Positions 1 to 8,015 of a DNA stretch of 64,000 bases are shown here, piece after piece; within the stretch, counting starts at the first letter, position 1, and every line of letters begins with the position of its first letter. The translations under genes and the position numbers were made by a program. Location of the stretch: NCBI GenBank assembly GCA_004519485.1, contig CP038124.1:186001-250000 (forward strand), read 5' to 3'. The stretch comes from Nannochloropsis oceanica (lineage: Eukaryota; Sar; Eustigmatophyceae; Eustigmatales; Monodopsidaceae). The notes beneath the pieces are model-generated. The model did not search any database. It was not told where the DNA came from and was given only the letters and a program-made list of their open reading frames with translations.

Positions 1-1308
1 CACCTTCGCCTCCAGCGCCTGCCCCAAGCGCACCATCTCCTTCTCCAGTTTTTCCAGCTCGACTGTGGCTGCCGCCGTCTTTTCCCGTACTGCTGCAGTC
101 TCCGCCAGCTCGGCCTGTATTCCTTCTTCCTCCTGCTCCTTCCTTCTCAAACCCTCGTCTCTCCTCGCCTTCAGCCGCTCCAACTCCCGTTCAAGCGCCC
201 TGACCATCCCCAGCACCTCCCTCCCTTCCCTTTCTCTGTCCCTCAAAACCTCCTTTGCCTCCTCCATCGCCTCCTCCACCTCCTCCCCAAGCCGCTGGTG
301 CCGGGCCACGCCCACCTCCACCTGGCCCCTCCTCTGCGCAAGTTCCCATAATGCCCTCTCCCTCGCCTGCTGCATGGCCATCAGCTCGCCGTTCTCTCGC
401 ATGACCATAACGACGTTCTGTTGTACCGCCTCCACCTGTGCCTGCCTCGCCAAAAGCTCCTCCTGGGCCTGGGCCAGCCGTGCGTTGACCGCTGCGAAGT
501 TATGCTTGAACGAGTGGAGGAGGGTTAAGGGACTCTCCCCTCCTCCTCCTCCTTCTCTCCCTCCTCCTCCTCCTCCTCCTCCTCCTCCTCCCCCTCCTCT
601 CAAAGGCGATGCCATCTTAACTATGATAGAAGCAGCCATGGTGTCCTCCGCCCGGCGGGTATGTTGATTGGTGCGAGGATGTTGCCGCTGTCGCTGCTGG
701 TCGTTGTGCTGCTGCTGGTAGTGGTGAGGGTGATGAGGAGGGAGGACAAGCAGCGTGTCAGGCTCTAGGTCCAAATCACTAGGGGAGGGCGACAGCGAGG
801 AGGAGGAGGATGTTGTGGGCGAGCTTTGGGAGAGCGAGCCAGAGGAGGAGGAGGAGAGAGGAGAGGAAGGGGTGGCGGCCTTGACAGGCATACGGAAACC
901 GGCCCCACCAGCAGCACTAGCGCCAGCGGCACCGCCAAGGGGAAGAGGGGGACCGTGATAACTTCCACTGCCCCCATGATCCCCTTCTCCGTCTTTTCCC
1001 CCTCCTCGTCGTTCCCCCTTTTCGATCTCCTCCTCGTCGTCGTCTAGCTCCCCATCAGGTTCGCTTCCCATGAAGAGGAGGGCCCGCTTATTCTCTGTCC
1101 GCCCTCCTCCTCCTCGCCCTCCTTCTGTTTGTCCTCTTGTCATATCACCTTCACGACCACGCGTTGGGCTAACGAGGCGTACGGAGTAGGTGTCTGCACC
1201 CGGCGCTGCCTGCATGGTAGTCGTCGTTGTGCAGCTGCTTCCAAGCGTGCGTCCTCGACCAGCCTTTTGAAAAACAAAGCCGCCCCCACCACCGCGTCGT
1301 GTTGCCAT
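1..1308 (-). CDS. Coiled-coil protein, N-terminal part (runs off window)
   Basis: An open frame on the minus strand starts at ATG 1306-1308 and stays open to position 1, so the C-terminus lies outside the window. The visible ~436 residues begin MATRRGGGGG. They continue through a low-complexity Gly/Ser/Glu region (about residues 80-185), a His/Gln-rich stretch and a poly-Gly run. From about residue 250 there is a long Glu/Lys/Arg/Leu/Gln-rich segment with heptad-like spacing (for example ELEKLEKEMVRLGQALEAKV at the window edge), which reads as coiled coil. No catalytic motif is visible. Two in-frame downstream ATGs at 1215 and 1143 are alternative starts. I do not recognise the family; a cytoskeletal, centrosomal or trafficking scaffold is possible but unproven. 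The plus-strand frames here are antisense low complexity. Confidence 0.55.
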   Translation of the reverse strand, partial: MATRRGGGGGFVFQKAGRGRTLGSSCTTTTTMQAAPGADTYSVRLVSPTRGREGDMTRGQTEGGRGGGGRTENKRALLFMGSEPDGELDDDEEEIEKGERRGGGKDGEGDHGGSGSYHGPPLPLGGAAGASAAGGAGFRMPVKAATPSSPLSSSSSGSLSQSSPTTSSSSSLSPSPSDLDLEPDTLLVLPPHHPHHYQQQHNDQQRQRQHPRTNQHTRRAEDTMAASIIVKMASPLRGGGGGGGGGGGGGREGGGGGESPLTLLHSFKHNFAAVNARLAQAQEELLARQAQVEAVQQNVVMVMRENGELMAMQQARERALWELAQRRGQVEVGVARHQRLGEEVEEAMEEAKEVLRDREREGREVLGMVRALERELERLKARRDEGLRRKEQEEEGIQAELAETAAVREKTAAATVELEKLEKEMVRLGQALEAKV

Positions 1309-2478
1309 GTGCTTATTGAAAATGCTGTCTTTTTGTTGGCTCGCTCGGGTCTGTGCCGTGTGTGTGTGACCGAGTGGGGGGTTGAGGCGGCGTGTCGTGA
1401 TCAGGGAAATATTTTTTCGGGGGGTAAGCGGTCGTGCCGCAACAAGAAGTAATAAAGTGGGAGAGGGCAGTGGTATATTCGCCTCTTTGCGCTTGTATGA
1501 TAAGAAAAATTATAAGAAGGAAGGGAGGAGGAGGAGGAGAAGGAGAAGGAGGTGAAGACGAAGGAGAAGGAGAAGAAGGAGGGGTAGGAGGAGGAGGAGG
1601 AGGAGATGAAGAAGATGAAGGAGGGCGGGAACAATAACCCCCTACCCCCCAAAATTCCTTGCATAAAGCTCAGCAAAGTCAATATACACCCTATTACGAC
1701 AGAGGCGGATGGACACGTACAATTATCTCATTAAATTTAAGCATCCATTTCCTAGTGTTTCCAATAATCGTTATTCCTCCCATCGCTCGCTATCCCCCAG
1801 CTCTTTTCCTCTCTTCCCCTTAGGAGAAGTGGAACTGGCTGCCATGGGTTGGTTTCCCAGAAATTGAGGACATGCTCATAATTCCGACGTTCATTTTTTG
1901 TCAACTTCTAAGTACCTTTGTCTAGTATGGATAATCTTCCGGATCTGCGACTCTGTACACGGTGGGACCATACCCTCCATTTTTACCTCCTCTTCCTTGT
2001 CTTTGCATATATTCAAGTGTCTTATACTGCTCGGTCACGGATCGATCGTAATCTTTACCGTGTGAAATATTAACAAGGAGAACGTGCGCAAAGACCCCTC
2101 AAACCATATAAAATTCCTCCTGATGCCTAACACACAATGAGCAGAGAAAGGAGCAGAAATAAGAGAGCGACCGGAAAAAAGGGAAGCACACACTCCAGTC
2201 AACGCTATTGGCTCTCTCATTACGGACGCCTCAACAAGTTTTCAGTTTCACCGGCGACCATACACACTCAAGTAAATCAATGGAGAACAGAACATGAAAC
2301 ACGTAAAGACTTGCAATCGTCGTTGTTACCTAAAATTAATTCTGTGGGTCCTCTTCCCATCCCCTCCAAATACATACATGCTTTTTTCTATTTCCTTTCT
2401 CTCCTCTCATACATTGCACTCTTCACCGCGGCCATTTCTCCCTCGTTGCCGACAGCGCCTCCATCTCTCCTGCTGAGT
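1309..2478. other. Intergenic region between two minus-strand genes
   Basis: This holds the presumed promoter of the coiled-coil gene (next to 1308) and the 3' untranslated region of the 5-phosphatase gene (next to 2479). It contains a purine-rich GGA/GAA tract at about 1520-1630 and an AT-richer stretch at about 1680-2330. I see no splice-supported gene. The open frame crossing 2137-2946 is mostly antisense to the neighbouring gene. Confidence 0.5.
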
Positions 2479-4326
2479 TTACAAGGGACTCGTCGTAACC
2501 CGCATGTCGAAGCACAGCCACCCCTGGAACTGACCACCTTTGGTAAGTGGAAGTCGCATCGCTCTGCTCTGCTCCTTTCTCCCTCCTCCTCCCAGGCCTC
2601 TGCCCTCCTCCGCTTGGTCATCAAAGAAAGCGACAGAGACCGGCACCACACACTCACCCAGATCCCATCCCTTGGCGTCCGACAGTCTGATCAGCATGTG
2701 CTGCGAGAACTTCGGAGACGCCACCGTCTCAAACCGCACCGGGAAGCCTTTCCCTCCCCATCGGACGTCTCGTCGAGCGCTCGCCGTAAGATTCCGGCTT
2801 CGGCCCCAGCTGCCAGAACGACCATGGCCACTACTGCTGTTCATGTCCCCGCCACCGTCGCCGCGGCCATTGGCCCCGCTGCGTCCACGCTGTCGAAGGG
2901 TGGAGAAGGGGGAGGTGGAGGGGAGAGCGCCGCGAGATGGAGCTAGCAAGGGGACAGAGGGTAGGGCTTCTCCCAAGGCCGAGGCCAGGCGTTCCTCTGC
3001 CACGGGGTCCTCGGGCACGAGTGGAAAGAGAAACACGACAGTGTGTGGCGACGGCGACACCGACGACGTCACTCCTCCCCCGCCTCCATTCTTGGTGATC
3101 TTTGCTCCCTTGCTCCCTTCCTCCTCCTCTCCTGCCCGAGGCGGCACAAAGAACTCGACGTGAGGCCGACGAAATGTGAAGGTGAACACCGCCAAGTCCT
3201 GCCCCTCGTCCTTCTCCTCCCCCTCGTCCTCGGCTACACTCTCGCCTCTCTCCTTGCCGTTCAGTGACGTAGACCGGAAGCCCTTCACGCTCCCATCCAC
3301 TGTCAAGGAGAACGTGGCGACCACGGGCCGATGGTCCGAGAGCTCGATCTCATCATTCATGTCGTAGTGCAGCAGCCGCAGCAACTGGCCCTGCCCCGGC
3401 ATGGAATGAGAAAGGATGCGGTCCGTGTAGCTTGGGGTTCGGATAACGCGTGCATCTTTCTCCAGCTCGTCCGCGTTCTCGTCCTCGTCCTCGTCCTCCT
3501 CGTCCGGGCGAAGGTCTGCTTCGTCCTCTTCTGCATCATCGCCAGGCCGTAAGTCTTTTTCGACAGTGGAGCCGGAAGGCAAGAGAAGCGGAGGAGCAGC
3601 AGCAGTGGTAGCGGCAGGAGTGTTGCTGGAGCGCACCCGAGAAAAAGACGACTGAGAGAAGAGAGGGAGGGAAGATGGAGTCGGCGCGACCACCGCCGCT
3701 GGAGCCTTGGCGGTCGTCCGCGTCGTGTAGGCCCTCGCCACCAACCGCTCCACCGAGGTAAAGTCCCCCGCCAGCCCTCCCTTCTTCCCTCCCTCCTTGC
3801 CTCCCTTCTGCCGGTGCCACCTGTAGGAGGGAGGAAAGGCGATCGTCCCTTCCCTCCATCCCCAGAAGACCAGGCGCTGCTGCCGTGACAAGTGCAGCTC
3901 GTCCAAGGTACGCACCCAGGCCCAGGGCGAGGAGGAGGATGAGAGGGAGGAAGCGAGGGAGAATGAGGTAGCGAGCGCGGGAACGGACGTCGTAGCAGAA
4001 GGGTTGGAGGGATGTACAAGAGGAGGGAAGTCGGCAGAGGCAGGCAATGAGGTGGAGCTGGAAGCGGAGGATATGGAAGGGGAGCGAGAAGAGATTTGAG
4101 ATGTCGGAGGCACTGGTACTTGCAGCTCAGCGTCGCCGCCCACGTCTCCAGATTGAGAAGCGTAGCGATTGACAGCATGGTCCCGCTGCTGTCGTCCCTT
4201 TCCAGCCCCCCCTTCCTCCTCGTCCAGCTTCCTGCTCCCAGCTCCTTCTCCTGCTCCTTGCGTTTCTCCTCGAACCAGACAGCTGTCAGAAGCACTGATG
4301 CTGCTGTAACCGTTATCATTAATGCC

Positions 4327-4371
<45 letters not shown>

Positions 4372-7300
4372 CCTCCGCATCGTTCTCCCGATGCTGCCAC
4401 CGCTGCTGCTGTCAAGAGCCCTCGACGACCTGAAGAGCCGTCGAAGAGTTGCGCCCAGGCCTCCCTCCTTCCCTTCCTCTTTTATTCCCTCATTCCGGGT
4501 TTCTATCAACGACATGGATACTTCATTCAAAGGAATACTCAACGAGGAGTAGGGAGGATAGAGCGGCATAGCCGCCCCTCCTTCCCCTTCTTCCTCCCAT
4601 CCCTCCACACCTCCATCCTTGCCTCCCTGCAGCAGGCGTGCATATTGAACCTCTCGCCAATTCAGAGGCTTTCGACTGCGATTTCCCCCACTGCTGCCAT
4701 CCCACTTTCCTACCCCTTGCATTGATGAAGGAGGCATAGAGGACGGGAGGAGGAGGCGGGCTTGGCTGAGGCGAGCGGAAAGAGCGACGCGCGTTAGGAC
4801 GTCGCGAGGGGAGGTCAGGCAGCGGTAGTTGGCGTCCCCACAAAAGAAAGTCTGGTGGTGCAGGTGGTGGACATCCACAGCCACCCCATCCCCTCCCCAG
4901 ACTAGGCCCAGCCGTCGAAGCATCATCCGCGCATCCCGGTTCCTCCTCATCAGCATGTTCTTGCCATGCTTGTCCGAGGCAAAATGAGCCGTCACAAAGG
5001 CCACGGTCGTGTCGAAGTACCGGGCGCTCAAGCCGACGACACCTTTGTTTGGTATGCGGAGCCACCCGCCCATGACCTCTTTGCCTGTCGCCAGCCGCGT
5101 GCGTGTGGAGTGATGGAGAGAGAAAGCACCGGCTGATTGGTGTATCAGGGAGAGAGGTATAGAGAGAGGGAAGGAGGGAGGGTCAAAAATGAGATTGGTC
5201 GGTCGGTCTGTGCATTCAAGATTTCATCAATTAAAAAAAACGACCCCTTTCTTCACCCTTTGCCCCGGGCATTACCTGTCACATCCGCCGCCTTGACGAA
5301 AATGATGAGGCCGACGTAGCCATGGAGCACGACGGCGTCGCCGATCTTGTCGTGGAAAAGGGCGTAAGCGGAGGGCCCACCGAGGTAGCGGTGGAGGACG
5401 AGGCGGAGGGTGGGGAAGCAGGTGCATTCCTGGACGCCGATCGCATAGAGGTCAAGGCCGGGGGGCAGGAAGCGGGGGAGGGAGGCTTGGAGGGAGAGGA
5501 AGGTGGCAGGATCGTCAAGATTCACGCCGCCCATGTTGTAGGTGGTGACGAGCAGGCGAAGATTCTTCGTTGTGGACGAAGATGAGGGAGGGCGGGGGGC
5601 GTTGCCGTTGTTGCTTACGCTGGAGACACTGGGGTTGGGAATCTGCCGTTGCTGTTGTTGTTGTTGCTGCTGCTGCTGCTGCTGCTTGTGCCTGGCAGAG
5701 ACAGCTTCTTCGGCAGCGGCGACGATGGCAAGGGCCTCGTCTTCGGGGGAGGAGGAGGTGGGGAGTGGGTGCGATGACGGCGAGAAAGTGACGCCCTTAT
5801 CCCGTGGTTGCGTGGGGAGGAAGTTGAGGGTTGGATGGGAGTTCATCCGGACTATCATGGGCCGGGCCAGTACCCCTGCTCCCCATCCACCTACTCCCCG
5901 CTTTCCGTCCTTCCCTCCTTGTCGAACACCAACCCCGCGTTCCAAGTCGTCCTCCTTAACCCCAAACGCCTCCTCTTCCTCGTCCTCCTCTTCCCCCTCC
6001 TCGTCCTCCTCTTCTTCTTTGCCATTCCTTCGGTTTACAAGCCACCCCAACCAGGGACAAATCCACGATGAGGAGGAAGAAGAGGAGGAGGAAAGACAGC
6101 AGCCATTGGGCAGGTCCAGACCGAGGATCAAAGCGTCGACAAGGCCGAGGGAGCAGAGGATGGTGGAGCGAATGAGGAGGGGGGCCGCCCGCGGGGGAAG
6201 ATCAAGAAGGTGCCGGATCCAGACGATCAGATCCATGGCAATAACCATCAGCCACACTGAGGGAGGAAGAAAGGGAAGGAAGGAAAAGGGTGAGGTTCAG
6301 TGGGATGAACGGAGAGAAAGGAGGAAGCGCACGAGGGCGAGAGGGAATGAAAAGGGGGCCAGGGTGCGTGGGGCTAGAGAAGGGGAAAGCTTATTACGAA
6401 GCCAAAAAAAAGAGACACACTGTAGTAAGGGCCATACCTCCCACAATGACATAAAGGATGAAGGTCAGGCGCTTGAGAAGCTGCCGGTTGAGGGCAGGCT
6501 GAAATGACTGCCCCCTATTGCTGCCGACGCTGGAGGTGGAGAAGCGGCGGGAGGGTCCGCGGATGTGAGGGCGGTTGGGGGTGGAGGAGGAGGAGGAGAA
6601 GGAAGAGGAAGCGGAGATTGAGACGGAGAAAGAGGAAGGTGCAGAGCGAGTGGCGGAGGAGTTCGCCGTGGCGAGCGGTTGGACTGCTAGGGAGCTTTCC
6701 TGCCTGACGCTGTGGCCTGCCTCTCCCTCTTCTTGTCCTCCTTCCCCCACTTGGCGTAGTTCATTCTCTCTCGGAGCGAGCATAACGTCATCCTTGCCCC
6801 AACTGGCCTGTCCCGCATGGCCTTCCCCCGTTAGACATGTCTGCTTGCCACCATATATTTCTCCCCTTCCGATTATCGTCGTTGTTGGTGATGTTGCTGC
6901 TGCTGCTGCTGCTCTTGGTGTTGATGTTGTTGTTGTTGTCGTTGTTGTTGTTGCTGCTGCCGCTGTTGCCGCTGCTGCAGCGGCCGTGGGAGCCGGGCTT
7001 CGCAGGATCCTCATGACCCCCATATACCACCAGGTGATGAAAGAGAGGCAGAGGGGAATCAGCAGAAGGTCCGTGAGGACCAGCCGCCCGACTCGAAAGC
7101 CAAACAGCTCGGAACGGAGGCCGAAGGCGAGGGAAGCTCGGATAGCCAGGTAGATGACGGAGCCGAGCGTCATGAGGATCACCCGGGGCTTGCGGTACAG
7201 CTGAAGGGCGGTGACCTGGCGGAAGAAGGGAAGGAGGGAGGGAGGGATGAGGCGACAAGGTGAGAATCAAACTTTTTTCTTTTTTTAAATTCCCAAAAGA

Positions 7301-8015
7301 AACTTGAGTTGGTAGAGAGGAAGTGGATGAAGCCGACGAAGACAGGACAGAGACAGAAGAGCTGCAGCCAAGTACCTTCCGGACCATGTAAGCATGCATG
7401 CAGTAAGCGATAGACCCGTGCAGAAACAGAGTCTGAGCAGCAAAGAATTCGCGCGCCGCTCCCAGCGCGTAATTGTTCTGCGTGAGCATGTCTTGAGCAG
7501 GGAGCCCGCCGATCGATTGTCCCACGGGGGTGTAGCAGTCCAGCACGTATACGTCTAAGTTTCATAAAGGTGGGTGGAGTGAGAGACAACAGGAAAATGA
7601 TAATAAGGGTGTTTTGGTATATTCTCGGCCTCGCCCTTCTTTCTGCTGTCCACTTGACCTCCTTCTTTCCTGTTTCCATCTACTTACAATCGCAAATGCC
7701 GTAGCAGATTTCGTATATGCACAGGAGGACCATCAAATGGCCGAAGAGGTCAGCCGCCGTAAAGTACCCCGTCTCTCTTTCCCTTCCTTCCTCCTCCCCT
7801 GTCTTCCGCCTCCATCGTCGCCAGAGAAAAATGGTCCCGTGCGTGGCGTAGCGAGCGCGGAGCAGGCGAGCGAGGAGAAAGAGGAGGGCGAGCATGGAGA
7901 GTGTGATGATGCAGAGCAGAAATATTTTAAAATTAAGATCCCTTGGAGCCACACAATTGGGGCGGAGCAGGTGGAAAGGGCGATACACCGGGCCTCGGGG
8001 ATAATCTTTGGGCAT
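2479..8015 (-). CDS. Receptor-like multi-span membrane protein fused to inositol polyphosphate 5-phosphatase (GPCR-INPP type)
   Basis: Five exons: 8015-7688, 7554-7376, 7215-6438, 6256-5276 and 5084-2479. All introns are GT-AG, phases agree, and they give 1,623 aa. An in-frame stop just upstream of ATG 8015 fixes the start. Residues ~30-480 hold seven or eight hydrophobic spans, for example FKIFLLCIITLSMLALLFLL, VILMTLGSVIYLAI and LTDLLLIPLCLSFITWWYM. A Ser/Thr/Ala/Asn-rich loop lies before the sixth. From ~657 an IPPc domain follows: TYNMGG, YAIGVQE, VTAHFAS, FFCGDANYR (~839), EGTIAFPPSYRW (~1172), RTPSYTDRIL (~1307) and SDHRPVVATF (~1339). These are the Mg-binding and catalytic motifs of phosphoinositide/inositol-phosphate 5-phosphatases. 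About 280 low-complexity residues interrupt the domain. The last ~270 residues may form a C2- or Ig-like module. Known biology: oomycetes encode GPCR-bigram proteins joining receptors to phosphoinositide enzymes. Coupling of ligand sensing to phosphoinositide removal is inference. Confidence 0.85.

Follow-up and report, generated by a model that had tools for sequence, protein, structure and literature searches.

In a 64,000-nucleotide stretch of the Nannochloropsis oceanica genome (contig CP038124.1, positions 186,001 to 250,000; hereafter the window), we analyzed a minus-strand gene that encodes a seven-transmembrane (7TM)-like region and, after it, an inositol polyphosphate 5-phosphatase domain (IPPc). 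The gene and its parts, with transmembrane spans numbered TM1 to TM7, are as follows.

2479..8015, minus strand: complete coding region, in five exons; the corrected model has 1639 residues
7688..8015, minus strand: exon 1, with the N terminus, TM1 and most of TM2
7376..7554, minus strand: exon 2, with the end of TM2, a loop and TM3; gap-free at both junctions when aligned to two relatives, paralogue C2 and database protein P0002
6438..7215, minus strand: exon 3, with TM4, TM5, a long low-complexity loop and the first 10 residues of TM6
5276..6256, minus strand: exon 4, one open frame with the remaining TM6, complete TM7, a linker and the IPPc motifs that come first, TTYNM and VQEC
2479..5132, minus strand: exon 5, with the remaining IPPc and the C-terminal region; start preferred over 5084 from homologue alignment and a small Pfam gain
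6111..7925, introns included, minus strand: seven transmembrane spans, from sequence reading and from seven long helices in a low-confidence model of the relative P0002
3322..5546, introns included, minus strand: IPPc catalytic domain, from Pfam match, motifs and alignment to SHIP2
2482..3201, minus strand: conserved C-terminal region, shared in alignment by the window protein, C2, P0002, P0004, P0005 and P0006

Joining the exons of the initial annotation (8015-7688, 7554-7376, 7215-6438, 6256-5276 and 5084-2479) gave 1623 residues with zero internal stops, and all four introns were bounded by GT..AG, in good agreement with the proposed single gene of five exons. The window protein aligned end to end with paralogue C2 and with P0002, the gaps falling mostly in low-complexity parts. 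Of the four junctions originally placed at 7554, 7215, 6256 and 5084, the first three were gap-free in this alignment and can be kept. The acceptor at 5084, however, drops about 15 residues found in four aligned relatives (C2, P0002, P0003 and C27). Another acceptor, 5132, lies 48 bases upstream, in frame, and is preceded by CAATCAG. Starting there inserts 16 residues (AGAFSLHHSTRTRLAT) that align to the intronless C2 with a single one-residue gap; the first IPPc part then scores 48.2 bits in Pfam, up from 46.7. Exon 5 probably starts at 5132 rather than 5084, giving a protein of 1639 residues; as neither acceptor breaks the frame and Pfam improves only slightly, this choice rests mainly on the homologue alignment.

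The single open frame of exon 4 (6256-5276) takes in 14 residues of the 24-residue TM6 and the whole of TM7, and runs on through the linker to include the first IPPc motifs. Furthermore, the paralogues C2 (locus L014; 1404 amino acids) and C27 (1435 amino acids) each carry hydrophobic spans and IPPc in one uninterrupted frame; spans over threshold numbered eight in C2 and six in C27, and seven in each when the sequences were read by eye. Because exon 4 bridges TM7 and IPPc and these paralogues are fused in single frames, the fusion is independent of splice prediction, and the claim that one gene joins a 7TM-like region to a 5-phosphatase is borne out. Our gene model comes from DNA alone, which would favor the reading that two neighboring genes, one for the 7TM region and one for IPPc, had been wrongly joined. 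We rejected this reading, which has next to no chance of being correct, on the strength of the exon 4 frame and the single-frame paralogues. Two database proteins, P0001 (1402 amino acids) and P0002 (1290 amino acids), show the same arrangement and also speak against it, with the proviso that P0001 may represent the same gene as C2, to which it is 99% identical over residues 1-290.

The spans of the window protein, with limits drawn by eye, lie at residues 31-52, 90-114, 143-167, 181-202, 211-237, 419-442 and 455-477. TM3 stays under the hydropathy threshold, and its position was taken from the alignment to relatives; the long low-complexity loop separates spans 5 and 6. Seven or eight spans had initially been counted. 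Seven (residues 31-477) were retained, and the eighth was discarded, as the hydrophobic stretch at 731-756 falls within IPPc. The TM7 stretch [GT]xxD[AS], chosen by eye and with its chance level not computed, is kept in six of six fused loci.

The enzyme half matched Exo_endo_phos2 (PF22669; E 4.3e-25) in three stretches, and IPPc was the sole Pfam family listed for the whole window protein at E up to 10. All eight motifs sought, which we take to be the catalytic motifs of IPPc, were present (TTYNM at residue 666, VQEC at 703, PNKG at 783, AHFAS at 804, GDANYR at 854, FPPSYRW at 1188, PSYTDRI at 1322 and SDHRPV at 1354) and were checked by alignment to SHIP2. Low-complexity inserts interrupt the domain. 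Together, the Pfam match, the motifs and the alignment uphold the description of a full IPPc domain with all catalytic motifs. The nearest IPPc sequences with solved structures are those of the animal 5-phosphatases SHIP2, SHIP1 and INPP5E. SHIP, however, combines SH2 with IPPc, whereas in the window protein no SH2 was found by Pfam at E up to 10 and a membrane receptor-like part is present instead.

The region following IPPc gave zero Pfam matches over the cut-off, and its comparison by hhalign with the C2 domain of C22, another IPPc gene described below, gave 0.4%, no real profile match. Going only by the look of its sequence, this C-terminal region is possibly C2-like. A structure model of the IPPc half of the relative P0006 was unusable (pLDDT 28.5).

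PF22669 matched 17 stretches at nine places in this genome. Six of the nine adjoin a 7TM-like region, namely the window gene (C26), C2, C27, C18, C17 and C8; the splice models of C17, C18 and C8 were built by hand in this analysis. No 7TM region was recognized at the other three (C3, C4 and C22). C3 is OCRL-like, with IPPc, ASH and RhoGAP, and upstream of both C4 and C3 we found only scattered hydrophobic stretches in several frames and no recognizable 7TM region. C22 (L013, G000:C22:262001-272000) combines IPPc with a C2 domain match (23.3 bits versus a cut-off of 22), and no 7TM region was recognized upstream within the L013 stretch. In all six fused loci the last residue of the conserved His motif is Asp (HFASD, HFAAD, HLPAD or HLSSD); the motif reads HLAAH in all three IPPc genes without a recognized 7TM region and HLTSG in SHIP2. 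When a tree was built from ten sets of IPPc blocks (132 columns, the first block of C18 being short), the six fused sets separated from C3, C4, C22 and SHIP2 at an ultrafast bootstrap of 78, a grouping that we regard as suggestive. Two of the fused paralogues deserve separate entries.

L015 (G000:C17:467001-477000), minus strand: fused paralogue C17, whose receptor part matches Dicty_CAR above cut-off
L016 (G000:C8:772001-782000), about 5093-5800: fused paralogue C8, with a damaged IPPc region

C8 has a TAG at the Q position of VQEC and a frame change ahead of the GDLNYR motif, and because of these two lesions it may be a pseudogene. One could suppose that the window gene is likewise decaying, present but with its function lost, and its heavy growth of low-complexity sequence would fit such a course. 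However, it is open over 1639 codons and keeps all eight motifs, and we consider decay very improbable.

Searching the database with the full window protein gave zero matches at E 0.001 among 7974 scored candidates. Residues 1-290 of C2 retrieved three proteins, and a trimmed four-row alignment retrieved six at E 1e-10 among 7996 scored, adding three others to those already obtained; all are close to paralogue C2. None of the proteins retrieved was identifiable as coming from an oomycete.

The receptor part of the window protein matched no Pfam family, including Dicty_CAR (PF05462), the class E cAMP receptor family. That of C17, in contrast, matched PF05462 at 33.5 bits versus a curated cut-off of 21, making C17, in sequence terms, the clearest link from these fusion proteins to a named GPCR (G protein-coupled receptor) family. 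C18 scored 10.7 bits, below the cut-off, and the receptor parts of C8 and P0002 gave no match. Significant comparisons link the receptor part of the window protein through C18 to C17; those of C27 and C8 showed no clear pairwise link to it (14/300 and 17/300 shuffles). The model of P0002, of low confidence, has seven long helices, and the matches listed in a fold comparison using it were mostly GPCRs. This indirect support, coming through relatives, suggests that the membrane part is a GPCR by ancestry. Since a PF05462 match is absent from it, we call the window protein a relative rather than a member of the Dicty_CAR family. The initial description of a receptor-like 7TM region is thus supported as to the seven spans and lacks a direct receptor-family match in the window part itself. 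Searching the genome in six frames for Dicty_CAR gave zero matches; as the control genomes gave none either, this does not show absence. The search also missed C17, whose receptor part is split over exons.

The order of 7TM region and IPPc matches that of the GPCR-INPPs named by van den Hoogen et al. 2018 (mBio; PMC5784254), confirming the suspected likeness to GPCR-bigrams. According to that paper, Phytophthora infestans has seven, other oomycetes have between one and nine, and outside oomycetes they occur only in the alga Nannochloropsis gaditana, which has seven and no GPCR-PIPKs. Contrary to what had been assumed, a receptor/5-phosphatase in an alga is therefore not novel. Since PMC5784254 reports GPCR-INPPs in oomycetes and N. 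gaditana, the fusion type was already known, and the window gene is a further member of it and no new type. As in the present protein, one polypeptide carries an N-terminal 7TM region and, after it, an inositol polyphosphate phosphatase, and in N. gaditana these proteins likewise form a small family reported without GPCR-PIPKs, with seven members versus the six 7TM-linked IPPc places here. The term "cAMP receptor" is absent from the main text of PMC5784254, whereas C17 matches Dicty_CAR. What we add is that six of nine IPPc places have a 7TM-like region, that one of them looks disabled, and that one receptor matches the family of RpkA. Among the papers searched for GPCR-INPPs or GPCR-bigrams and Nannochloropsis, only the two van den Hoogen papers came up; in the main texts of PMC10925823 and PMC12223298, on oomycete phosphatases and membrane proteins, the terms searched brought up no such fusion. 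A fusion older than oomycetes, as originally suggested, is compatible with the published distribution, the alternatives being horizontal transfer or independent fusion.

RpkA, which consists of Dicty_CAR and PIP5K (PMC10445921), and the GPCR-PIPKs of Dictyostelium and others are likewise receptors fused to a phosphoinositide enzyme. Their enzyme is a 5-kinase, whereas that of the window protein is a predicted 5-phosphatase; the receptor of RpkA belongs to the family matched by C17. We tentatively raise the possibility, which we hold to be rather doubtful, that the receptor half shares descent with the cAMP-receptor-type module of RpkA and GPCR-PIPKs. One receptor type would then have been paired with opposing enzymes, a kinase in some lineages, a phosphatase in this alga and both in oomycetes.

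A 7TM-like part and an IPPc with intact motifs thus stand in one frame, in a family of such loci. Very likely, the window protein is a GPCR-INPP bigram of this alga-type genome, in which a seven-helix receptor-like domain holds a cytoplasmic 5-phosphatase at the membrane. The N terminus would lie outside the cell and the seven-helix domain would sense a cue, while the tethered enzyme, closest in sequence to SHIP2, would take the 5-phosphate off PI(4,5)P2 and/or PI(3,4,5)P3. More speculatively as regards both ligand and receptor control, activation of the receptor might directly shift the position or activity of the phosphatase, with G-alpha, also encoded in the genome, possibly acting alongside. 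For GPCR-bigrams, direct activation, cleavage, G-protein and other models have been put forward (PMC6033456). The main competing explanation is that the seven helices sense nothing and merely keep the enzyme at one particular membrane. The missing direct match of the window receptor part to any receptor family counts in its favor; the seven-helix layout, the shared TM7 stretch and the above-cut-off match of C17 count against a mere anchor, which we judge unlikely.

Elsewhere in this genome, G-alpha stretches above cut-off were found at one place, RGS stretches at two and PIP5K stretches at five, and PI3/4-kinase stretches were also present. In a 10-kb stretch at each of the five PIP5K places, searched for a GPCR-PIPK, no frame of at least 90 amino acids had more than two hydrophobic spans, although receptor parts split over short exons would escape such a search. 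A PI-PLC-X search of the genome gave zero matches; as the controls gave none either, this does not establish that PI-PLC is absent. A minus-strand open frame downstream of the fusion gene (window positions 1-1509) runs past the window edge; judged by eye, it contains low-complexity sequence followed by a long charged coiled-coil-like stretch.

If the phosphatase is receptor-controlled, a single molecule would both detect a signal and take away PIP2 or PIP3, skipping the usual chain. Transformation exists for Nannochloropsis-type algae (PMC13427358), which makes the GPCR-bigram question testable in such an alga. The single-frame paralogues and the paralogue matching Dicty_CAR provide useful anchors for work on GPCR-bigrams.
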